Assembly: GCA_027923505.1 (NCBI GenBank)
Contig: BROI01000014.1
Location: 806,001-870,000, forward strand
Length of the DNA stretch: 64,000 nucleotides
Direction: 5' to 3'
Source: Mayamaea pseudoterrestris
Lineage: Eukaryota; Bacillariophyta; Bacillariophyceae; Sellaphorales; Sellaphoraceae
Every line of letters starts with the position of its first letter. Within the stretch, counting starts at the first letter, position 1. Positions 14,366 to 53,593 of this stretch are shown here, piece by piece. Made by a program: the position numbers and the translations under genes. The notes under the pieces were generated by a model, which had not been told where the DNA came from, made no database searches, and saw only the letters and a program-made list of their open reading frames with translations.

Positions 14366-17300
14366 TTATAAATATTGGATCGATGACTCTATCAAATCGA
14401 GCCGCTGCAGAAGGAAGTCTGCATCAGGGGCGCTTCTCACGGCCGCTCGGAGCTGCTCCATTCGTGGTCGTAAGCGACCAGTAGCAACCGCTCGAGACAG
14501 TTCTTCACGGGCGAGCTGCAGATTTGACCCTCCTACCATGCCTTGTCGTGCAGTGTCAACCCACATCTCCAACAAGTTTACAAAGATGTGCAGCTGCTCG
14601 ACGAACTTCGCTTGGTCACCGCTGGGCATCGATTGGAAGCTCACCTTTTGGCAGTACAATTCGTAAACGTCCAATAGAGTCAGAAAAGGCACTCCTGCTC
14701 TCGCAAGAGTGGCAAGCGACCACGAAACATCAAGGCTGTGTTTCGCCGCTTCACGAAGCGCTGAAACGTAAAGATTTTAGATGTGCGCTGACCGAGCGTT
14801 AGTAAAACAACTAAACCTAGACGTACCTTCCAACACGTCCAACAGATAATTTACGGGGAATACAAAGTCCGCTCCTGTGCCATACAATTCCTCGCCTAGA
14901 CCAATAATTCTTGTCTCGACATGTGTCGACCAATCACCATCCTCAAACAATCTGAGTGAATTGGTTGATTCGTTTGGCCCGAGAAGCTGAACATCATCTG
15001 CCTGCCCTATATTACTGAGTAAGCTCTCCAAGCGAGAATGTACCTCTATATCCCGAGTAGCACATGGTAAAAACTCTTCTGCAATCAAGTTGATCCAGAG
15101 GCGTTGAATTTCAGCCGGATCATCATGTTTGCAGGCATGTAGAATCAACAATGAAAAATCGAAGAGGTACAAGCGCGTCGTATACTCATTGTAAAGGTCG
15201 GAAGCGTCAACGAGCTCAGAAGTCACCCTATCATGCATATTGCTGTCACAATCGATTTTCATGCCTGCTTGCCGACGCGAGTCTATAGCGTGAAGCACAC
15301 GCTTCTGTATGCGGGCAATACATAACGTCTCGCGAGCAAAATTCAAACGCTCACGGTCAAGTGTTATCGCTTTTTGCGTCCCATCGTCCAAGGCAAATGA
15401 TGCCTTACTCTCGCTTCTTTCAAGGTTTAATCTGAATGCATTGACAGCACGCGAAAGAAACTCAATGCGATCGTCCAAGGGGACTGGAGACTTACTATTT
15501 CTCGCTCGCGAAAGGGAAACCTCACCTGCATCCAGTGACCGATTCTGGGCATCGTAGTAGCGCCACAACAGCTCTAATTCACCGGTCTCCTTAATCCATT
15601 CTTCTACGACCGGAGTATCAATCATAAGAAGTGTTTCAACATACCCATTCTCTTTCAAAAACGAGAAGAAGCGATGAAGAAAAGCGCGATCAGTTGCTGC
15701 AGTACAGGCTGAAGCCAATGTATATGCTTTAGCTGGGTCAGAATCCATCAAGGCCGCGAAATAATAGAATACCAAGGAAAAGCAAGTGTCGACCGCATCA
15801 CCTGCCGTAACTGAAATTCCGCCAGCCACGCTTCGACTCGAAGCGCTAGTTGGATTCCCGTTGCCGGACTCCGCATCAAATTGCTTTCTGTACAGCTGAA
15901 GCTCCCACGGATAAGCGACATTGGTTGACGATTTTTCTACAGCCGACCACGTTGATTTTGCTGTTGACGAATCATTCTTCTGGAAGTTCAACGCCGTGAC
16001 TAAGCAAATGTCAACGGCGGTGGCAATATCGCCTAAGCGAATCAACAAATCAGACGCCCTGGCAAGGGGACTCTGACACTGAAACGCTCTCGAAGCAACT
16101 TCGCTGTAAGATTCCTGGCCTTTTGAATGCAGTATGCGACCAGTAATTAATGAGGCATTCACCCAGTGCTTGGCAGCATCGCGAAAGTGGTTCCCCGCTT
16201 GATTAGTCAACAACGCTCGCCGACTCGAGCCAGCAGCATTCTCCAGGGCTTCATTCGCTCGAAGGAATCCGAGAAAAGCTGAGCGTGATCCAGGTGTAAA
16301 ATAACTATAGCATTGTTCAGAGAATTGGCTTGCAATCTGATCCACGAGAACGGAAGGCGCAACTTTTCCAAACCCATCCGCCGCAGATGCGGTAATCAAC
16401 GAGTTCAGCAAGCGTTCTACTCGGTCTTGGCCATCCCGAGTCTCTACAAGCTGTGAAAATGTTAAACCGTGCAGAAGGCCCCATTCCACTTCATTCAGCT
16501 CAGTAATATCCTCTGCTTTGTATAAGAGCAGCAGCAGATTCAGCACTTGAACAGCACGAGAAAGCAGCCTGTATAGCGAGTGGATATTTCGTTCTTCCAT
16601 AAGGCGAGCCAATCGCTCCAACTCAGCATCACTTATGATATGATCTGATCCGTTCATATACGCACGACTCTGATGTTGGTACGAAATTGCATTCGTGATG
16701 AAATTATCGCCTTCCAACTCAAAATCCATACTCGTCTGGTCCTGACTCACACCGGGCACAGTTGCAACTGCATGACTTAGCTTCTTCATGACCTGTAGCA
16801 AATCAGCCGGCCGTTCTCGAATTTGTTTTAAACCTCCACTAGACACGAGCAATTCGACCTTTGGAGGTGTCACATGTACATCTCGCGACCATGCAGATTT
16901 GACCACCCGACCTTCCGTCACCACAACGGCCGGCTTGAACCAAAAGGGACGCAACAAGCGTGATATTAAAGCCGTCAAACCTTCAGCAAGTCTGGAAGGG
17001 ACAAATTTATAGCCCTTCGGTACAATTGAATCGACTATATTCGATGAGTAGCCTGTAGCGCCGTTGGTGGCGTCATTTTCTTTAAGCACGAGCTTTGGGC
17101 TAAATGAATTAGCCAATGCAGCTTTCCAAGCGCGTTCTCGGAGTCGCAAAGACTGCGTAGATACTGGGCCACAGCCAGCAGCCAGCGAAAGACACATCGC
17201 ACAGCCTTCTTTATTCCCATATTTTTTGAAGAAAACGGTTATGTTTGGGTCAGATTTCACATTCTCCCCAGCGGAGCTTAAGACATCTGCCAGCGACAAC

Positions 17301-19717
17301 AAAACAGTTTCGCAGTTGAAAATGTGCAGACCCCCAGCGTTCAGCGCTATGACATCTTTTGTCGCCGCAGAGTATTGCTGAGTTGCGAGTTGGTGTAGAG
17401 GCACCATCGGAGGCTTTAATAGCCACTGGCGTAAGCGGACAGACTTCGTTGTGATCTGCTTTCCTCTGCTTCTTATAGGTGTCGCTTGCGATACGTACTG
17501 CATCTTCTCAGCTGCCGTCAGGCTAAAGCCATCTTTCCCGTCGCGACCAGAAATGCGATACGATGGCGCTGAGGCTTTGCCAGCATACGCTCGACCGGCG
17601 TCAAGTCCAGGAACTGCGACGCCTTTACGAACCGCGTTAGCAAATACTGTATTTGGAAGTAAAGTTGTCATCAAAGAAACAATTCCACCGGATAGTGATC
17701 TATCACGAACCACAATCGATGTAATGGTCTCGTCGGATTGCGTTCCAAGAGGCCGATGCGGACGGGCCTTCGACGGCAGCGTATACTCCGCCGGCAAGCC
17801 AGAACCAAGTTCACTATCAGAAGGCGTAAGAGAGTTCTTGGCTAACTTCATGGCCACACTATCATCGCAAGATACTTGGGCCATATCAACAACAATCCCA
17901 CCTGGCAGTGAAGGGTTATCGACGGGGCCAGAACCACTCGCTTGCATTGGCAGACTAATTGTCTCCACAATCCCACCGGGTGCACTCCACAATTCTTCTT
18001 GGTCGTCGCCGTCTTGCGCAATAACTTCAAGCTTTCTGAAAGTGGGGCCAGGATACGCGGCAATGATAGCGTCACCCACTTGCGATGCTCCGCTCTCTCT
18101 GGCTGTCATGAATACACCGTCCTTGTACAGCGAAGCGTCCACATTGCCAGCCTTGTCAGATCCTTGGATGCGAGGCTTCAAACCACCCACAAACCCAGAG
18201 TCGTCAACAAGAGAAGCTAAATCTGGCTTTTGATCAGTCGGTGGTGCGGCTCGAACGTGACACAATGTTAACTTTGACGAAATCGACGACAGATATAGAC
18301 GCAAACCCGATTTTGTAACAGCCAAGAGAGTCAATTGTTGACTTTCGGTTGGAGATATCACATGGATCGAGATTGGAACAAGAGCTTTCTTATTCGCTTG
18401 CAGCTCAGCTTGTTTGAGAATTGCTCGAGCCCCTTCCATTCCACCGACACCAGCTTGCGCCGCTTGTCCGTTGCCATTGAAACTTATATAACCCGCGCTT
18501 CCTCCGATCGGCGGATTCATCTGTCCGCGTCCTACCGCTTCCAAATACTGTGTCACCTTTTGAGGTGTCTTTATGACTGCCGCAAGCTGCACTGACCCCT
18601 TGCTGCGAAGAGCAAACGAACATATAGAACCATCGCGCGACAAGGTGTACAGTGTATGGCGCGACTCATCGACTACAATTTTAACGATTGGTCCTCCTCC
18701 CGTCGCAGTTTTTCCTCCAAATAGCCAGTCAGCTGTTCGTGTGAGCACGTCAGGGAGAATTGCGCTTGCCCATGACGATGATGAGCGGTTTAGTTTGCGA
18801 CACTTTTGTGGTCGCTGCGATCCACGAGAGCCATTAAAACCTAGTGATCGTTTTCCAAGCGTTACGATCGTTCCCGTAATCGACGATGCACCGTCCAAGT
18901 AGATTGTTTCGCCTATATCCTCGCCTTTATCGTAAAAGGCAGCGAGTAGCTCTTCCTCGGATCTGTGCCTGCCTTCCGCATTGCCATTTTGATAAACAAT
19001 TTCGTACAAACATCCATCCTCGCCGCCGAGAAAGATACGACCACATTCCGTTCCAACGACACTGAGCATGCGTACATTGTCGGTTGGTAGATTGAAGGAG
19101 CTAGCTCTGACCTTGAAGGCTGCATCATCGTCCGATTTATACAGCAAGAGCTGCATGATTTCATCTGGAGTTGTTACAACCAATATCCACTCCACCGACG
19201 GCATAAAGTCTACACAACAGCAAGAGCAAAGGTACACCGTAAGAATGTAGCAAATAACAGCATTGCAGTAACCGTAAATCGTCTACGCACCCTTGTTTGG
19301 TTTCACCAATCCGACAGTGATAATCGGAGCGTTCGCTTCGAAGGTATGCGTCCCAGCCTGTTTCTCAAACGGCCACAGAAACAGTCTATTGTCGCAAGTA
19401 ACCCATACCAGAGACGCAGGAGCCAAAATCCCCATGAAGCTACACTTCTTGACACTTTTAAGCTCCTCCACAATGACTTGCGGCAGAGGTACGCTGCGGC
19501 GATGCTTGACCAATCGTTCCGTATCGTCCGTTGCTGGAAAATACAAGTGCTTTCCCTTTGGATCAGTCAGTTTGCGATAAATGTCCGCATCGGCTGCAGC
19601 TTCATCCTCGCGAAGAGCTTTGCGAATCGCCTGGCCCGCATCCTGGAGTGGCCGAAAGTCGTCGCTCCAGTAGGCGGCCATGGTCGCTGCCGCATTGGAT
19701 GCGGACGACGACGCCAT
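14366..19717 (-). CDS. NUP155: Nucleoporin Nup155/Nup170
   Basis: Modelled as three exons, 19717-19291, 19209-14827 and 14760-14366 (1734 aa), with introns of 81 and 66 nt in matching phase. The first junction joins VGLVKPNK to DFMPSVEWILVVTTP, matching the family pattern VGL-x-KP-...-LLVVATP-x-EI. The protein is an inner-ring scaffold nucleoporin. An N-terminal beta-propeller (LFLWPFEKQAGTHTFEANAPI, GRIFLGGEDGCLYEIVYQ) precedes a long alpha-solenoid. It is longer than human Nup155 (about 1390 aa), mainly through Ser/Gly-rich insertions between about residues 450 and 750. The C-terminal exon (FLTLLDVYELYCQ) continues the solenoid. Confidence 0.88.
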
Positions 19718-23503: not shown

Positions 23504-25273
23504 ATGCACTCTAAAAAGTCGAATATCATGAGAATCCTTGTGCGAGCCGTCTTTGGAGCGTCGCTCATTGTCACGTCCGTCGCCTTTGTCCCACGACTCA
23601 CGGCGCCGTCGAGGGGCGTTGTTTCGCGCGGTTATGCTACTACCTTCAACAGGTATGCTAACAGACCAAGCCATCTATCCATGAGTTCGATAGCTGCTGA
23701 AGGAGACAGACCCTCTGGAAAGTCGTTCAAGGACAGAGTCAAGTCGCTGCTTCCACCCAAGAACGAACGCCAAAAGCTTTTACCTCTTGCGCTCATGTTC
23801 TTTTGCATTCTTTTCAACTACACCATTCTTCGCGATACAAAGGATGTTTTGATGGTGACAGCCCCAAAGAGTGGAGCGGAAGTGATTCCTTTTCTCAAAA
23901 CGTACGTGAACCTTCCCACTGCCATTGCGTTTACTGGCATCTACGCCAAACTCACGGACACCATGGAGCTCAAGAATGTTTTCTACGCCTTTGTGGTGCC
24001 CTTTTTGATGTTCTTTGCATCGTTCGCTTTTTTCATCTACCCGAACCGAGCGTTGGTGCATCCTCATGCGTTTGTGGATTCATTGGCGGCGGTTCTTCCG
24101 GCAAACTTTGCGGCGCCTCTATCCATCATTCGTAACTGGAGCTTTGCTCTCTTTTACGTCATGGCCGAAATGTGGGGTTCCATGGTGGCGTCACTTCTCT
24201 TTTGGGGCTTTGCTAATGAAGTCACGACGGTTGATGAAGCGAAGAAATATTGTAAGTGAAGATCAAGCGAGTTTATGTTTCGACGCTGACGATCCTAACG
24301 AATCTATTACATGCTTGCAGACCCACTCTTTGGTCTAGGAGCCAACGTGGCTCTCATCTTCTCTGGACAGTACGTGAAGTGGGTGTCAAACTTGAGAGGA
24401 ACCTTGGCGCCAGGCGTCGATGCATGGGCTGTCTCGCTCCAGTACTTGATGGGCGCGGTGCTGGCATCTGGTGGTGTTTTAATTGCGGCCTACAAGTACA
24501 TGCAGGACAAGATTGTGTCAAAGAACAAGGAGATGTCAGCAATGAAGAAGCTACCCATTAAGAAAAAGGTCAAAATGTCAATGGCTGATTCAGCCAAATT
24601 TCTTGTGAGCAGTTCCTACATTCGAAACTTGGCGACGTTGGTTATTTCGTACGGAATGTGCATCAATATTGTCGAGGTCAGCTGGAAGGCCAAGCTTAAG
24701 CAGGCCTTTCCGGATCCCAACTCATACTCGGCGTTCATGGGCAACTTTTCCTCTGCAACCGGCGCCGTGACTCTTATAATGATGCTTCTCGGTCGCACAA
24801 TCTTTGAAAAGTTTGGCTGGAGGGCAGCTGCTATGGTGACACCGACCATGATTGGCGTTACCGGGCTTGCCTTTTTTGCCACCAATATCTGGTCGGGCGC
24901 CATGGCACCCGTCGCTGCCATGTTTGGAGTGACACCTCTTATTCTCGCTGTCCTGCTTGGAGCGGCTCAAAACATCCTCAGCAAGAGCGCCAAGTACAGT
25001 CTGTTTGATCCTTGCAAGGAAATGGCGTACATCCCTCTCGACCAAGAGTCCAAGACCAAGGGCAAGGCTGCCGTTGACGTTGTTGGCAACCCCTTGGGCA
25101 AGTCGGGAGGTGCTTTGATCCAACAATTTCTAATCTTTGGCGTTGGTAGCTTGGCAGCTGCCACGCCGTATCTAGCGGGCATTCTGGCAGTGCTTGTCTT
25201 CTTTTGGTTCAAGGCAGCCAACTCGCTGTCTGTACAATTTGAGGATGCTATGCGGGCTACACCTGAAGCCTAA
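23504..25273 (+). CDS. NTT: Plastid-type nucleotide transporter (NTT, ADP/ATP translocase)
   Basis: Two exons, 23504-24251 and 24321-25273 (566 aa), have a 69-nt intron. The junction rebuilds Tyr and gives AKKYYPLFGLGANVAL, matching the NTT signature. NTT-type transporters exchange ATP/ADP or import nucleotides across plastid envelopes; they are unrelated to mitochondrial carriers. Several transmembrane helices are visible (LLPLALMFFCILFNYTILRD, AFVVPFLMFFASFAFF). The leader MRILVRAVFGASLIVTSVAFVPRL ends in an ASAFAP-like site, so plastid targeting is inferred. The start at 23504 has AAA before ATG; an in-frame ATG at 23528 is an alternative. Substrate (ATP/ADP exchange or net nucleotide import) cannot be told from sequence alone. 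Confidence 0.92.
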
Positions 25274-41726: not shown

Positions 41727-43820
41727 TTACGAACTGCTAGTAGCAGCGTGCGCCTCAAGGACATGCAACGCCTCCTGAATCTTGGCGTTCAATGCTTCGG
41801 GACTCTCGAGCAAGTGGAGAAGCTCCGAGTTGTCCATCTCGAGCAACATGCCGGTAATTTTACCAGCCAGATCAGGCTGCGACTGGTGAATCAACGGGTA
41901 CAAACGCTCGCCAATCATGTTCTTCTGCATCTCTGGCGAAGCAGAGGCAAGAGCAGCAGCCGTAAGGGCGCTATCCGGAGCCATGACGGAAGGCGGTGGA
42001 CCACCCATTTGCTGCTGACCAGGCTGGCCACCCATGGGCCCAGTGTTGCGAGCCTGGGGGTTGAATTTCATGGGCGGCTGGCCGGGCATTCCTCGGCCGC
42101 CACGACCACCTGGTCCACCGGGGCCGCGTCCCATTGGAGCAACGCCACGGCCTCCACGACCCATGAACTGCTGCTGCATACCGGGCTGCTGCTGTTGCAT
42201 GCCCGGGTAACCTCCACGGCCTTGCTGACCCATCATCGGGTAAACGCCGCCACCACGACCACCCTGAGGACCGCCACGGACAGGCATCATCTGCGGCTGC
42301 ATCATTGGATACGCCGGCTGCATGCCTCCAGGGCCAGGCCGCTGCATACCATACATGGGCATGCCGGGGTAGCCCATCGGTCCACCACCCATGGGCGCTC
42401 GCATCATACCCGGCTGTCCCGGTCCACCAGGACCGCCACGTCCAGCATGCTGCGCCTCGAGTTGAGCGCGACGGACCTCGCGACGCTGTGCCAAGGCGAC
42501 AAAAATGGGCTTGTTCTGGATCAACTTGCCGTTCATCTCGTTGACTGCACGAGTGGCTTCTTCCGGACTTGAAAAGCAGACAAACCCAAACCCACGAGAG
42601 CGACCATCCTTGGCGTCCTTCATGACGCGAGCCGACGTAATGGTTCCCATGGTGGCAAACTCGTCGCGAAGAATGTCGTCCGTGACACCATCGTCAAGGT
42701 TCTTGACGTAAAGGTTGATGCCTTGAAACTTGGAGATGCGGTCCATCTTCTCGGCTTCAAACTTGCTACGGAGCTCGCGCTCGCGTTCAGCCTTCTTTTG
42801 TGCACGACCGACATAGAGCGTCTGGGTAATCTCTTCGCCGTTAAGAGTGGTCTTGAGCTCGGTACCGTTCATCGCCTCGACGGCCGAAGCAGCTGACTCG
42901 TGTTCCAGAAAATTGACAAACCCAAAACCGAGAGTCTCCTTGCCACTGCCTTCCTTCTTCTCAGCTTCCTGCTGTTCCGCCTCGTCGGGCTGCTCCTCCT
43001 CGTCAGGATTCTGTTCCTTCTCCTCCCCGTTGGCTTCCTTCTCCTGCTTGGGCGACGGCTTTCTCGTCCCACGAGCGACCGACGCGCTAGCAATCTCTCC
43101 AAATTTGGCAAACTCTTCCTCCAACTTCTTCTCGTCCCACTCGTACGGAATGTTCTTGACGTAGCAATTCGTCCAAGAGTTAATGTCCGGACGATCGTTG
43201 CGGCGCATAAAGGCTCCGACCTGAACCTCCTGACCGTCAATCAACATGCCATCCAACTTTTCAATGGCAGCATTCGCCGCTTCCGCCGTCTCGTAGTGAA
43301 CATATCCATATCCCTTGGACTCACCCGTCCCAGGTTCCGTCACAACCTTGCAGGACAAAATGTTTCCAAAGAGCGAAAACGTATCGTACAACTGCTTGTT
43401 GTCAATGCTTTCGTGCAAGTTCTTGACAAATATGTTTCCAACGCCGCTGCGGCGCAAGGACGGATCGCGCTGACTCCACATGATGCGGCACGGCTTGCCC
43501 TTGATCATGGAAAAGTTCATGGTATCCAAGGCGCGCTCCGCATCGGGCATTTGGTGAAAGTTCACGTACGCGTACCCAAGGGAGCGACGCGTGACAGCGT
43601 CGCGGCAGACGCGAATCGAAGCGACTGGTCCGACGGCAGAGAAAATCTCAAAGAGCAAGGACTCGTTCACTTCGGGGAGCAAGTCTCCCACGTAGAGCGA
43701 AGGGGTGCGGTAGGGATTGACGTCGGGAGCAGCGTTGCCGCCGCCGCCTCCCATGGAAGGAACTTCGTTGACAGGTTCGTTGATTGACTCAACGGGAATG
43801 GGAGCGCTTGGAGCTGCCAT
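41727..43820 (-). CDS. PABPC1: Poly(A)-binding protein (PABP), 4 RRM + MLLE
   Basis: An intronless 697-aa cytoplasmic PABP that binds mRNA poly(A) tails and promotes translation and stability. Four RRMs begin at PSLYVGDLLPEV, GNIFVKNLHESI, NCYVKNIPYEWDE and INLYVKNLDDGV, with RNP1 motifs such as SLGYAYVNF and SRGFGFVCF. RRM3 has an acidic Lys/Glu/Pro insertion of about 50 residues before its RNP1 (GFGFVNF). A Gly/Met/Pro/Gln/Arg-rich linker with RGG repeats follows. The C-terminal MLLE domain (IGERLYPLIHQSQPDLAGKI, TGMLLEMDNSELLHLLES) would bind PAM2 peptides. High GC and strong codon bias suggest high expression. Confidence 0.95.
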   Translation of the reverse strand: MAAPSAPIPVESINEPVNEVPSMGGGGGNAAPDVNPYRTPSLYVGDLLPEVNESLLFEIFSAVGPVASIRVCRDAVTRRSLGYAYVNFHQMPDAERALDTMNFSMIKGKPCRIMWSQRDPSLRRSGVGNIFVKNLHESIDNKQLYDTFSLFGNILSCKVVTEPGTGESKGYGYVHYETAEAANAAIEKLDGMLIDGQEVQVGAFMRRNDRPDINSWTNCYVKNIPYEWDEKKLEEEFAKFGEIASASVARGTRKPSPKQEKEANGEEKEQNPDEEEQPDEAEQQEAEKKEGSGKETLGFGFVNFLEHESAASAVEAMNGTELKTTLNGEEITQTLYVGRAQKKAERERELRSKFEAEKMDRISKFQGINLYVKNLDDGVTDDILRDEFATMGTITSARVMKDAKDGRSRGFGFVCFSSPEEATRAVNEMNGKLIQNKPIFVALAQRREVRRAQLEAQHAGRGGPGGPGQPGMMRAPMGGGPMGYPGMPMYGMQRPGPGGMQPAYPMMQPQMMPVRGGPQGGRGGGVYPMMGQQGRGGYPGMQQQQPGMQQQFMGRGGRGVAPMGRGPGGPGGRGGRGMPGQPPMKFNPQARNTGPMGGQPGQQQMGGPPPSVMAPDSALTAAALASASPEMQKNMIGERLYPLIHQSQPDLAGKITGMLLEMDNSELLHLLESPEALNAKIQEALHVLEAHAATSSS

Positions 43821-46146: not shown

Positions 46147-47873
46147 TCAATCAAACCACTGAAGCAAAATCGCATCGCGTACAGCAATGTATCCCAAAAT
46201 TTGAAGTGGCTCAAGCCATGCCCGTCCAATTGCCAAATACACGGTTCGCTCCAGCCAACCTGCAAACAAGTTAGCTACGCCACCATCTCCTTCCTTGACA
46301 ATGGTTCGCATCGTAGTTATCAGACCCATCCCTGATCCACCGTCAATTCCATTTGTTGGATCATCGTCGCTATCCACAAGGATCCTCGTTCTTGCAACGT
46401 CAAACGGGGTAGTAAGCACAGCACAAAGAAGAGCTGTTGCGATTGTGGTCAGCTCATAATGTGCAAGATCGACACTGCCGTGAAGTAAATAGCGGTTGAG
46501 AGCTACGCGACTCAACAAATAAGGAAGATCCGTTAACGCGACAGCAGGCAAGCGTTCCAAGCTCTCACGAAACCAAATGCCAACCTGTTTGCGCACCGCT
46601 TCTTCATTTTCCTCTTTCGTTTCATTCTTGTTCCGCTTTTTCTTTCCAGTTGCTACCTGTAGTCGAACAGCTAATGCATCCGCTGGTGTGCTTATGATGA
46701 GGGCCACAACATCTGCAACCAGAGCTGCTGACACTGCAGTTGTGACATCGCCCAAGCCCGGAACCGAATTCAACGATCGTCGAGCAATGTCCCTCACGCC
46801 AAAGTATACGCCAGTTGCAGGAACAGTTACTAATAGTGATGGAATTAAGCCAGCGTATAGCTTTCCCTCGCGAAAGTGTCGAATAGCATTCCACTTGAGT
46901 ATGTTTGCTCGCCGTTTTATATGAAGACGCTTCGTCTTTCCCCATTTCATGCGAGTACGCGTCCCCTTTTTGATGTCGGCTTGTATTCGGTTCTTTAGCG
47001 TTAGCAATGGATACAGCAAACTCGTGCGAGCCATTTCTACCTGTGAAATGGAAATGAGCAATGGTTAATGCGCCACCTTTAATTGTGTAAAAGTAGAACA
47101 AACAGGCGCAGCATAATTTGCAAGGCTAGTCTTACCATTGATCCAGCGACAATTGCAGCGACGAGTAGCTCCGAATCGGATATTTTGCGAATGGTCCTAG
47201 CCGGTGGTACAAGAAACGATGGAACCCAGCCGGGTACTTTGAGCGTCGCCTTCTTTTCAAACGTGTATCGATCTAGTGAGACGTATGTAGTAGTGCACTC
47301 CATCGTTACATTTATGTTAGTCTCTCGAACAACGTCTGTAATGTTGACTCGCTTGAGCTGTTTTTTTGCAGAAGGTAGTGGTTGTGCTACCGGTACTTTT
47401 CGACTGTGAGGTGTCGTCCACAGAGAAGCTATTTTGTTGCTGCCTTGGCCTGGCTGAACGATAGTTGATACGAATGCAGCTGTTATAGCCCCTCCTGTAG
47501 TGAGAGCGCCGAGCTGGAGCCACTTTCGTCTTGACAATTGTTGAGCGCTACTTTGCCGAGTCTGCATTGCTTTTGCTGGGGCTGTCGCATTCAAAGGTAA
47601 GATTGGTTCCAAACTGCTCGCATCGAGAGCTGAGTCCTCTTGATATTGTAGATTGCCGACGTCTATAAAGTCCTGGTCTTCAAACGGTGCAGCATCACCC
47701 AGAGTTGTCAACTCGCCGATGCTGTCCGACACGGTGATGTCCGGATCGGACATGGCACCATAAAGTGGTTTCAATCGTCCTTTTCGAACCCATTGTTGTT
47801 GCAATCCATCTGTAGTTTGTAAATAGGGGATTAGGAGCAATATGAGGACATTCAAGGTAGAAGAGGCGGTCAT
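46147..47873 (-). CDS. Mitochondrial-carrier-fold protein with plastid-like leader
   Basis: Two exons, 47873-47136 and 47040-46147 (543 aa), have a 95-nt intron; the join VAGSM|VEMARTSLLYPL is in phase 0. The C-terminal ~330 residues have carrier-family features: YPLLTLKNRIQ, FREGKLYAGLIPSLLVTVPA, STPADALAVRLQ and TTPFDVARTRI, which are the three P-x-[DE/T]-x-x-x-[KR]-x-[RK] repeats in degenerate form. The long N-terminus begins with a hydrophobic signal (MTASSTLNVLILLLIPYLQT). It later has a twin-Arg-like segment, SRRKWLQLGALTTGGAITAA, followed by hydrophobic residues. Such a leader is unusual for the family; plastid-envelope location is inferred. Substrate is unknown. Confidence 0.78.
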
Positions 47874-48841: not shown

Positions 48842-51800
48842 TTATTCGTCTTCCCAGAATCCCGACTTTGTGATTGTTTTTCGGCTGGCTTTTGTCATTG
48901 GCTGTAGAGCTTCAGTTTGCGGTTGATCAAAGACCCGCTCACTGAACAGTCGTCGAATGTCCATGGCCGTCATCTCAGCAAAGGAAGCCGTTGTCGAGTC
49001 AGCTGTCAGAAGCTCGTATTTAGGGAAATGACCGATCAAATTGACACTGCGCATGTCAACCTCATGCGCAGCGTGCGATGCATGTGGTGTCGAGTCAAAC
49101 GCGACACAATGGTCGGGCCTTCGCTCAACTCGCAAAGCAGCGCCAAGTAATTGTTGCACATCATCCTTGTAACCACTTGTCGACGAAACACGCTTATCAG
49201 CAGGGAAAAATTCGGCCAGACCGGAATATTGCAGAAGCGCTTCCACTTGATCGCTCTCCAAGAATGAGACAATGGCGCAAGACATCTCGACATCGAGCAG
49301 CGATTTTATCCATTTAGCGGTTCCAGATGCAGAAGACACCATAGGAATCGTGTTGGCAGAATTCGGAGTAGTGGATGCTTGCTCTGTGTTGACGTTCCAA
49401 CGCTTGCGTAAAACACTAATTTCGTTCAAGTACAGCTCAACAAACCGCGCTGCCTCCTTGAAATCGTTCGCCCAAGCGAAACCTGAAACAACAGCCGATT
49501 CTGGACCGACTGACATTGCAAAGAGAACTTGGTCATCAGTAGGCGGCTCTCTACCTTCCTTAGTCGCCACTGCTTCCCAAGCTTCATACGCCGTTTTAAA
49601 TACTTCATCCTGACTCGGTCCAGCGGTCAGATCTGCAATACTTGTCTGATCAGACGACTGGAGCGACACCCCAGGCGTGGCTTGGTTTGCTGACTCCGTA
49701 ATGACCGTTTCCCGTGCTTGTATTTGCTTTTCCTCAACCTCTATTGTTGAGGGACCTTGCGGTGCAACCCCTAAGCTTGCGTCGACATGCTCCCGAAAAG
49801 AAGCAACAACCTTTTGCAGCATCACGTCATCGCCCGTCCAGCCGAAAAATTGGCTCACCGCCATTAATGGTTCGTTAATGACGAATGCGGAAAGAACCGC
49901 GTCCGAACTGGGCGGCGTTAAACCAAACGCTTCGGCCACTGACTGCCAAGCTCGATAATGAATTTCCATCATGGCGTTCTCATTGACAACGCTTTTTATT
50001 TGGCTCGTATTACTTGTACTAGCTTCTGTTTGTGTTGGTTCAGGCACCTTTGTTGCCAAAGTTGCACGGCCATACTTTAGACAATTATTGTACGTTTCAA
50101 CAATTCGACTTGCTTCATTTACGTCGCTCGTCCAACGAAACGCTTCCATGACGGCCCTTTCAGGATCTAAAGATGCGGCATGAAATAGATCGGCTTGCGA
50201 AGGGACTGACTTCGAATAAAATTCTGCTGTCGCTAGCCAAGAATTCATCGAAGACCCAGTCGACGCCTGTCGTGCTGCTGAATCAATCACATCGGCACCT
50301 ATCACAAGTGCATCCGCTGCTTTGTCTGGCGGAACAATGCCTTCACCTTTCGCCCAGCTATCAAATAGCTCGCGAAAAATTTTCCTATGCAGTGCTGTTG
50401 CATCTCTAATAGTTACAACGTCATTCGTCCAGAAAAATGCTTCCCTCATTGCGACTTCGGGTCGCAGAACAGATGCTCTTACAACATCATCATGCTCTGG
50501 TGCTTTAAACCCGAATTGATCCGCGACTTCTGTCCAAGCCTTCATTTGCAATCCAGTCAAATCCACTAAAACTCCTTCGAGCCGGAATATCGCGCCAAAA
50601 CAACTGAACGGCTTGTTTACTCGCGGTAAATACTGAGACACGCCAGTCGAGTAAACGGACTCTTTGTGGTCCATCAATGAGTTTAAACCAGCTGCATCAA
50701 GTTCAATGAAATCCAGCAAGCTTTCTTTTCTAGCTTTAGAACTGGCATCGCCCCAGTCGCTCCGCCTCCTCCGAAAGTCTTCATCGTCGAATTTATAATC
50801 TGCGTAGTCGTCCGAGTTTCGAGAGTTTCGTCGAATCCTATCGTTACTGACTTCAATACCCATCTGTCGATTCTGGCCACGTCGCTGCTCGTACTCATGA
50901 AGTTGTTGAACCCTCTTGTCATACTGATCGTCCTCAAACGTTGTATCAATACTAACTCCGCTTAACAGTTGCCCCTTCACGCCCCGTGGTTCATCCCGAT
51001 TGGATTCCTGACGCAACCAACCTGGCATTTCGGCGTCAGTGGTTTTGTCCTTTTTCGAGGAGTCGGGATTTTCTGTTGCATCAACATCATCGTCATCATC
51101 ATCATCGTCGTCGTCGCCATCAAGCTCACTGTCTTCGCTCTCCCACGCGAGGATACCGCCACGATCGCTGATGGCCCCTTCGTCAAGGGTTTCTATTCGT
51201 CGCCGTTGGGGTCGTGGACCAAGTGCATTTAAAACGGTTTCCGCGTATTTGACGTCGTCTAAGGATGTAGGAAGCTCAATAGCAGGTGGGAGAATCGCAT
51301 CTTCATCAAGTGCTTTGCGCAATTCTTTTTCCTTCTGGATGAACTCTTCATACGACGTTCTCCTCATTGCACTCGCTTCTAGATTGTCTTTGAGCCGGCC
51401 TCCCCCAACAGCCGACACAGTCCGGTAAAGAGAATCAGTTATCTTTTCTTGCCTGACAGACGATTGTGATGCTGCCGCAGCGGGTGCAGAAATAGATTGT
51501 GGAATGCCTTTTTGAGTGCGAGACGGTCTGGGCCCGATCGCCTGCAATACCCTGTCGGCATCTATGCTTCCATCGTCGCCAATTAATGCGGAAACATTTA
51601 CTGCCAGTTCATCAGACGATAGCTCCTCACTATCGACAGCCAAACCCGATTTTTGACGTGCTGCGTCTTCTATTCGTCTATACTCCTCGTATTGTCGCCG
51701 GATTTTATCCTGTTCGTCTTTCGTCCAGGCACCTGCTTTTCGGAACATGGATTGTAACTTCTGTTCCTCCATATCTCCAAGCTTTGAATCGACAGGAGCA

Positions 51801-53593
51801 GCTCTCCCAATCTCTAACTCTTGCGAAAAGAATGGTGTGTTGGGCGGCGGTGGAGGCGCCCTAGTATTGTCTAGATCAGTTTCGAATTCTTCAGTAACGG
51901 CGTAGACATTTTCATTCTCCTGCGCCATGCGACTTCGTTTCGAGGCCAGTTCCTTATCAACGGGCAGTATTCTATTTTCCGGAAGCGCCGTAAACACGCC
52001 ACGCAAATCTACCGGGCCTGTTTGCTTAATATTTATTCTCTCCTCCAAAGAAGCCTCATCGACGTCCAGATAGTCGTTGGGTTCCAAAATTGATTTCATG
52101 TATGCAATTTCTTTCTCTAAATTTTCCCGCCGTGAGGGACTGACCGAGGCTAGGAGACTTTCCAAAGCTTTGACAGACATTCGGTTTATTTCCTTACGAG
52201 TTTCCGCCTTCGTCCGATTTACGGATTCTGCCATCGCGCTGGGTTTCGTCGCTTCAACGACACCCAGAAATTCAAATGGTAGCCGTGGTCCACGAGTCAA
52301 TCCCAGTTGCTCTCTGATAGATTCTTCCTTTTCCACATATGCTTTCCATGCTTCTAAGCGTCGTGATACTTCGTCTTGCCGTGCCTGCATGTCTTCAGCA
52401 CCCTCTCCCAGCAGCGCGTCGTCTGCTGCCAAGCGAGTGGCGATTGATCGATACATTTGAAACTCTTTCATTCCATCCGTTCGAATAGTCCCCTTTTCGG
52501 ATTCTCGCTGCAAGCGACTTCTGAGTCTGTCGGCACTTTCTTCAAGCATGTCAACAATATCTTGAGCTCCTCCTGCTTCGGATTTGCTTTCCGCCATTTC
52601 TTCCAACCTGTCGAGCGCCCACAAGTCCATATTTGTGCCCTCGACAGGCAATGCTATACTTTTATCATCAACAGATTTTCTGAAAGCTTCTTGCTCATAC
52701 AGACCAAAATCGTCCCGTTCCCGTTTGAATGCTTGTCGTCGTTCTAATTCATCTTGCGTCTCGTCCAATAGTATCTGCAAGTCTTCCGTCACTTCGATTT
52801 TTGAAATGTCCTGTCGTTCCAGCTGCTCCATCCGCTGCGCCCCATAGGTCTGTATACGTTCATTGGCTCGCTTATCTCGAGTTTCAATCAACTCTCGTTC
52901 CATCTCTTCCTTGAAAATGAATTTCATGAGAGCTTCTGCATTCTCGGGAACAGAGTCAGCGTCCTGCTTTCGTTGCGTTTCAAGTCTCGCGAGCATTTCA
53001 TCAAACATGGAGTCATACTTATTCATTATTTGCTCCTTTTCTTCCTGAAACCATGCATCTTCCGGCAATCCTTGTCGTCGTTGTCGAGGCGCCCTTGTCT
53101 TGCTGCTTCCGCCAGCTTCCGCTGTTTGTAACGCCACAGAATTTTCCATGGTGCCAAGGTCGTCGCCATTTTCGGCAGCGCGAAACATTTCGGAAAGAGA
53201 GGGCATGCCAGATAGTAAATTGTTGAGTCGCGTCTTAACGCGGCGAGGAAAAGACGAAGAAGAAGGTGATGGCGTGTCGTCCTTGGGAGAAAAGAAGTCT
53301 GATGGATTCGTTTCCTGTCGAAACGCTTGGGATTGGCGCTCGTACTCGTCCATCATATCTCCTTCCTTGCTACCAGCCGCTAGATACCGCAACAATTTTG
53401 AGCGAGTATTCCATTTGCTATTGTGACATTGACTTGAAATACATGGAACGAGCGTGAAGGCAAAGGAAGAATTTAGGGAGACCAGAACGCAAACCCCAAA
53501 GAGGAAGCCTCTCGATAATGTTGCTTTCAGAGCAGTTGCAAACGTCTTGTTTCTCCATACCAAGACATTTTCTTCTCTATTATTATCTGGCAT
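48842..53593 (-). CDS. Large plastid-targeted protein: disordered/coiled-coil region + degenerate HAD domain with four cap-like repeats
   Basis: An intronless 1583-aa protein. The leader (SRGFLFGVCVLVSLNSSFAF) is a signal peptide ending in SFAF-TLV, so plastid targeting is inferred. Residues ~80-990 are charged, with coiled-coil and Asp-rich parts. At about 995 a HAD motif I-like block reads GAIFRLEGVLVD, where active CbbY-type enzymes have FDLDG: the nucleophile Asp is Arg and the second Asp is Glu. Four related units of about 60 residues follow (near 1011, 1115, 1210 and 1331), sharing AW..VA, P..D and F-W-[TA]-x-D. A C-terminal HAD core remnant (VSFLESDQVEALLQYSG, CVAFDSTPHASHAAHEVDM) ends the protein. 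It is probably a catalytically dead scaffold. Confidence 0.85.
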   Translation of the reverse strand: MPDNNREENVLVWRNKTFATALKATLSRGFLFGVCVLVSLNSSFAFTLVPCISSQCHNSKWNTRSKLLRYLAAGSKEGDMMDEYERQSQAFRQETNPSDFFSPKDDTPSPSSSSFPRRVKTRLNNLLSGMPSLSEMFRAAENGDDLGTMENSVALQTAEAGGSSKTRAPRQRRQGLPEDAWFQEEKEQIMNKYDSMFDEMLARLETQRKQDADSVPENAEALMKFIFKEEMERELIETRDKRANERIQTYGAQRMEQLERQDISKIEVTEDLQILLDETQDELERRQAFKRERDDFGLYEQEAFRKSVDDKSIALPVEGTNMDLWALDRLEEMAESKSEAGGAQDIVDMLEESADRLRSRLQRESEKGTIRTDGMKEFQMYRSIATRLAADDALLGEGAEDMQARQDEVSRRLEAWKAYVEKEESIREQLGLTRGPRLPFEFLGVVEATKPSAMAESVNRTKAETRKEINRMSVKALESLLASVSPSRRENLEKEIAYMKSILEPNDYLDVDEASLEERINIKQTGPVDLRGVFTALPENRILPVDKELASKRSRMAQENENVYAVTEEFETDLDNTRAPPPPPNTPFFSQELEIGRAAPVDSKLGDMEEQKLQSMFRKAGAWTKDEQDKIRRQYEEYRRIEDAARQKSGLAVDSEELSSDELAVNVSALIGDDGSIDADRVLQAIGPRPSRTQKGIPQSISAPAAAASQSSVRQEKITDSLYRTVSAVGGGRLKDNLEASAMRRTSYEEFIQKEKELRKALDEDAILPPAIELPTSLDDVKYAETVLNALGPRPQRRRIETLDEGAISDRGGILAWESEDSELDGDDDDDDDDDDVDATENPDSSKKDKTTDAEMPGWLRQESNRDEPRGVKGQLLSGVSIDTTFEDDQYDKRVQQLHEYEQRRGQNRQMGIEVSNDRIRRNSRNSDDYADYKFDDEDFRRRRSDWGDASSKARKESLLDFIELDAAGLNSLMDHKESVYSTGVSQYLPRVNKPFSCFGAIFRLEGVLVDLTGLQMKAWTEVADQFGFKAPEHDDVVRASVLRPEVAMREAFFWTNDVVTIRDATALHRKIFRELFDSWAKGEGIVPPDKAADALVIGADVIDSAARQASTGSSMNSWLATAEFYSKSVPSQADLFHAASLDPERAVMEAFRWTSDVNEASRIVETYNNCLKYGRATLATKVPEPTQTEASTSNTSQIKSVVNENAMMEIHYRAWQSVAEAFGLTPPSSDAVLSAFVINEPLMAVSQFFGWTGDDVMLQKVVASFREHVDASLGVAPQGPSTIEVEEKQIQARETVITESANQATPGVSLQSSDQTSIADLTAGPSQDEVFKTAYEAWEAVATKEGREPPTDDQVLFAMSVGPESAVVSGFAWANDFKEAARFVELYLNEISVLRKRWNVNTEQASTTPNSANTIPMVSSASGTAKWIKSLLDVEMSCAIVSFLESDQVEALLQYSGLAEFFPADKRVSSTSGYKDDVQQLLGAALRVERRPDHCVAFDSTPHASHAAHEVDMRSVNLIGHFPKYELLTADSTTASFAEMTAMDIRRLFSERVFDQPQTEALQPMTKASRKTITKSGFWEDE

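Follow-up and report, generated by a model that had tools for sequence, protein, structure and literature searches.

The CbbY/At3g48420 phosphatases and beta-phosphoglucomutase are HAD enzymes with a single C1 cap, and they carry Asp at both motif I positions. In HADs, the Lys of motif III normally holds the phosphate. The PYRP2 family (At4g11570 and its relative At3g10970) carries a plastid annotation in the matches listed and also has one cap. We presume that At4g11570 itself has Glu at the nucleophile position, as all 10 of the 10 readable PYRP2-named sequences in our alignment have it. An excerpt of PMC7017516 cites ArPP phosphatase activity for the At4g11570 product, and an excerpt of PMC8889267 lists both At4g11570 and At3g10970 as enriched in CLPC1-TRAP. 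A 2025 paper, again in excerpt, describes PYRP2 as induced against the trend of its pathway and suggests moonlighting functions (PMC12840815). All three observations concern single-cap proteins. The diatom pyrenoid linker PYCO1, as presented in an excerpt of PMC10288592, is also a plastid repeat protein of diatoms.

We analyzed a window of 64,000 nucleotides from Mayamaea pseudoterrestris, in which a single open frame on the reverse strand (48842..53593), without internal stop, encodes a protein of 1583 residues. A search of the 30.6 Mb genome with the C-terminal 602 residues returned one matching place only. The protein shares with the PYRP2 family a homologous cap and core, the lack of an Asp nucleophile and mostly Glu at position +2. 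It differs in several respects: the protein and its relatives have four or five caps instead of one, Arg instead of Glu at the nucleophile position, and a deletion where the PYRP2 family keeps the K/RPDP of motif III. In addition, the PYRP2-like proteins among the matches listed (P0113 aside) have 169-445 residues and lack the N-terminal part of about 900 residues. Compared with the one-cap enzymes CbbY/At3g48420 and beta-phosphoglucomutase, it combines a dead site with a cap array. The repeats are folded caps, unlike those of PYCO1, and the likeness to the linker may be one of function. A first-pass annotation, made from the sequence alone, knew of no described family with this layout, and we likewise found no description of a multi-cap dead HAD in the excerpts of the literature searched.

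A search with residues 985-1583 (7994 candidates scored) identified at least 69 proteins, including that of the window. The named relatives are from Fistulifera solaris, Nitzschia inconspicua, Epithemia, Detonula and a Bacillariaceae MAG; most others come from the jgi, lgn and ena sources of a database in which proteins are clustered and gene models may split exons. Two of them (P0063 and P0068) come from transcriptome collections, and thus the gene is expressed in relatives. Many of the 69 are labelled beta-phosphoglucomutase-like phosphatase by the source database, which is misleading given the absent nucleophile.

Motif I reads FRLEG at residues 1003-1007 (50573..50587, reverse strand), with Arg at the nucleophile position and Glu at +2. 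The first-pass annotation had noticed this double replacement of Asp, placing it at about residue 995, and had asked whether it was conserved. It is: the pattern FR[LIM]E[GS] occurs in 69 out of 69 family proteins. In a wider diatom-type set (n = 115), the nucleophile position holds Arg in 109 proteins and Gln in one (P0099), and the motif stretch is absent from five. The rest of the Rossmannoid core (residues 1420-1562; 48908..49336, reverse strand), delimited by profiles, alignment and structure model, retains the motif II Ser, has lost the motif III Lys and has D-S in place of the E-D of motif IV. Across the 69 family proteins, motif II is Ser in 65 and Thr in four, and the first position of motif IV is Asp in 68. 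The second position of motif IV is never acidic (Ser 30, Thr 25, Ala 8, Cys 3, Asn 2 and Gly 1). When the diatom-type and green profiles are aligned, the KP of green motif III faces a gap of two residues. All 69 proteins have the LR of LGAALR and the Tyr of PRYELL.

Compared with an active HAD phosphatase, the protein thus has the motif II Ser/Thr and lacks both motif I Asp residues, the motif III Lys/Arg and the acidic pair of motif IV. Because Arg and Glu are conserved in the whole family although relatives are just 30-50% identical over the matched part, the altered site is apparently under selection. With Arg as the nucleophile, Glu as the general acid, the motif III Lys gone and one motif IV acid gone, the known HAD mechanism is unusable. 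These residues exclude the known catalytic route, and the C-terminal HAD domain is a predicted pseudo-enzyme, as had been proposed.

Pfam gives HAD_2 as the sole match, just at cut-off, and the NCBIfam matches are weak, one to a beta-phosphoglucomutase subfamily at motif I and one to a fructose-1-phosphate phosphatase model at the C-terminal end. These matches fit a HAD domain that is interrupted by the cap array. The arrangement is that of a HAD fold with a C1 cap, in which a helical cap splits the Rossmannoid core after motif I. In a structure model, motif I forms a strand, each cap unit folds with high confidence into four helices, and the HAD core is complete after the last unit, where the first-pass annotation had seen a mere remnant. 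With a pTM of 0.53, the model leaves uncertain how the units are placed. Foldseek superpositions were loose (rmsd 9-17 among the 50 matches listed), and a second aligner gave a tight fit.

The four cap units lie on the reverse strand at residues 1012-1078 (50360..50560), 1112-1176 (50066..50260), 1208-1274 (49772..49972) and 1331-1397 (49403..49603), as defined by HMMs, hhalign, the structure model and identity, and their AW/SW motifs start near residues 1018, 1117, 1214 and 1337. Four related units had been seen before and are confirmed; each is 65-70 residues long and not 60. To assess their homology, we compared hhalign profiles of unit positions 1-5 of the relatives, which matched one another with probabilities of 98.6-99.9 in 10 out of 10 pairs and matched the green PYRP2-like cap at 95.9-99.0, against 0.2-6.4 for reversed controls. 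Because these units had been gathered with an iterated HMM seeded from the four units of the window protein, we also ran two tests with HMMs built elsewhere. An HMM from green PYRP2-like caps alone found exactly the four units, at 27.6, 22.2, 5.4 and 14.8 bits, with unit 3 the weakest (best of 200 shuffles, 3.4 bits; reversed protein, -1.0). Likewise, an HMM from unit 1 of the relatives alone scored 30.2, 39.8 and 25.8 bits at units 2-4, against 5.6 bits for the best of 200 shuffles. Profile searches with a repeat unit thus recover homologous units both in the relatives and within the protein, and together with the predicted helices they bear out the cap duplication suggested earlier. By sequence profiles and predicted structure, the C1 cap is tandemly multiplied inside the HAD domain, with four copies here and five in most relatives examined.

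We counted the units in 79 proteins, comprising the 69 from the family search and 10 chosen of 49 from another search. Of these, 63 carry five units, 4 carry four, 5 carry three, 6 carry two and 1 carries a single unit, with some of the low counts reflecting fragments (P0106, P0107, P0108 and P0111 lack one end). Mean identity at the same position across five-unit proteins is 33-48% against 25% between units within one protein, and the array is therefore old. On the same measure, the units of the window protein correspond to positions 1 (50.3%), 2 (27.5%, a weak assignment), 3 (36.8%) and 5 (42.6%), the fourth unit being closest to unit 5 of five-cap relatives. The window protein pairs with P0021 (100/97 in the smaller tree, 99/98 in the larger), and because this pair is nested among five-unit proteins in both trees, the window protein has probably lost cap position 4. 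The count of three units in P0021 could also result from its gene model. Neighboring units are most alike, at 52-57% identity, in P0107, P0108 and P0111 (whose third unit is truncated) and, for positions 4 and 5, in P0002 and P0005. This likeness points to more than one duplication of neighbors and suggests later tandem cap duplications in separate lineages. Proteins with every number of caps from one to five would form an evolutionary series in which an enzyme lid became a repeat module after catalysis was lost.

The first-pass annotation had likened the protein to CbbY-type phosphatases. Profiles, hhalign and trees instead place its closest relatives among the plastid PYRP2-like HADs. A profile search with P0113 and P0116 returned at least 176 proteins; those named among the 120 listed are from green algae and land plants, and many of the 120 are called 5-amino-6-(5-phospho-D-ribitylamino)uracil phosphatase, chloroplastic. 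We aligned 119 green sequences (P0116 and P0119-P0236), of which 109 are readable at motif I. Their nucleophile position is Glu in 108 and Asp in one and their +2 position is Glu in 101 and Asp in eight, with the qualification that the set was found with a query of Arg and Glu forms, which could favor such forms. Motif III has Lys or Arg in 115 out of 119, and in all 119 the first residue of motif IV is Gly and the last is Asn. The catalytic Asp is therefore mostly missing from a family of plant plastid proteins that is annotated as a riboflavin-pathway phosphatase, which makes the annotation directly testable. Since the +2 Glu is common to PYRP2-like HADs, it is the Arg that marks the diatom-type family; of the two residues singled out at first, the Arg stands as a mark and the Glu does not. 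The best prokaryotic matches to the PYRP2-like profile, HADs of Chloroflexota, Planctomycetota and others, have the Asp nucleophile in all 74 readable cases (80 loci kept of 332).

The diatom-type proteins form one clade with support of 100/100 in both trees, and diatom-type and green proteins stand apart from the prokaryotic ones (100/98 in the larger tree, 86/64 in the smaller). P0113, which is 506 residues long and has FRLEG but only one cap, is the first branch among the diatom-type proteins (95/82 in the smaller tree, 72/93 in the larger). The branching order of two-, three- and four-cap proteins disagrees between the two trees. With hhalign, the diatom-type core aligns to the green core through YEL..AD (99.4). 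On this evidence, the window protein, which has the homologous cap and core and lacks the single cap, the Glu nucleophile and the K/RPDP of motif III, belongs to a lineage related to the PYRP2-like HADs and is not a member of that family. In the simplest story, the plastid lineage would first have replaced Asp by Glu; the diatom-type proteins would then have replaced Glu by Arg and lost motif III, after which the caps multiplied and, later still, were gained and lost here and there.

In diatom plastid-targeting signals, the residue directly after the cleavage site (+1) is by rule a Phe. Residues 1-60 of the window protein (53414..53593, reverse strand) have such a bipartite diatom-type signal according to a sequence pattern and a hydrophobicity script, consisting of a hydrophobic signal core and then SFA followed by F. 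An ASAFAP motif is described for ochrophyte plastid proteins in an excerpt of PMC5462543. There are 36 long relatives with a Met start and a hydrophobic N-terminal core, counting the window protein. In 27 of them the searched stretch contains a Phe preceded by a small residue, whereas ten other letters gave 1-16 out of 36. These counts come from simple scripted pattern matching and not from a trained predictor, and some matches fall within the hydrophobic core, where they need not mark cleavage. The signal agrees with the earlier suggestion of a plastid-type leader, and the multi-cap pseudo-HAD is probably targeted to the plastid. The long leader described at first needs revision, as the leader proper has about 45 residues and the next ~900 are conserved and helical or disordered, the latter in keeping with the "disordered or coiled" of that description. 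In diatoms, the gene encodes a large and conserved protein that is probably located in the plastid.

Much of the N-terminal part is disordered and carries conserved motifs. Residues 180-430 (52304..53056, reverse strand; model residues 111-361) are predicted by AlphaFold2 to be a coiled or helical-bundle region of long helices without strands. Short motifs are repeated between residues 584 and 795 (51209-51844). PNTPFF lies in a disordered region at residues 584-589 (51827..51844, reverse strand); patterns of this type occur in 43 of the 69 family proteins, with P.TPFF present up to four times in relatives, and in 0 out of 300 shuffles of the first 1000 residues of the window protein. GPRP occurs twice, as IGPRP at residues 686-690 (51524..51538) and as LGPRP at residues 791-795 (51209..51223), both on the reverse strand; it is found in 66 of the 69 proteins, twice in 40 of them, and in none of 300 shuffles.

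A scaffold role is plausible, and we lean slightly towards the protein being a non-catalytic plastid adaptor or scaffold. The single core and one docked cap would fold as a closed or constitutively occupied HAD. In it, the Arg may occupy the site for phosphate or metal and may pair there with the Asp that motif IV has kept. The remaining caps would project as four-helix binding modules, and together with the long helical, motif-rich N-terminal part they would hold several partners in the plastid stroma with no substrate turnover. An enzyme needs one cap, whereas a dead core with additional binding units would suit a scaffold. In a more tentative version, the cap would have become a free repeat module, with the dead core anchoring up to five caps, each for a different partner, and with the upstream motifs adding multivalency, possibly as a stromal or pyrenoid organizer. 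The retained motif II Ser/Thr (69/69) and motif IV Asp (68/69) count against a scaffold and could mean ligand binding or unusual chemistry.

The main rival, which we consider rather unlikely, is a metabolite sensor. The Arg, together with the Ser of motif II and the residues invariant in the core, would bind a phosphorylated ligand (e.g. a flavin precursor or sugar phosphate) without hydrolyzing it, and this binding would alter cap docking and partners. The conserved motif II hydroxyl is consistent with this, as are the residues invariant in 46 aligned sequences (F, R and E of motif I; L, R, R, Y, D and F of the core) and the riboflavin-pathway annotation of the related plastid family (PMC7017516, in excerpt). 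However, the invariant residues may be structural, and the motif III Lys is deleted. That the protein is still an enzyme with changed chemistry, possibly via the Glu or the remaining Asp, seems improbable: the Asp nucleophile is missing from the green relatives too, which still have a member cited with phosphatase activity, but an aspartyl-phosphate is impossible with Arg and three of the four motifs are altered together. Equally improbable is that, like the two plant relatives trapped with CLPC1, the protein is a CLP-protease substrate or adaptor whose caps would serve in presentation or regulate degradation: the trapping means contact and not function, and the window protein is about four times longer.

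The window holds several other genes. A mitochondrial carrier family protein (46150-47034, reverse strand) lies near the multi-cap gene, and the open reading frame between them (47082-47873) has no Pfam match. A poly(A)-binding protein-like gene with several RRMs and an MLLE domain (41730-43820) and a nucleoporin with Nup133-like N-terminal and nucleoporin C-terminal domains (14780-19204) are also on the reverse strand. A TLC ATP/ADP transporter on the forward strand (23504-25270) is split into two open reading frame pieces, probably by an intron, and the first piece starts with a plastid-like signal.
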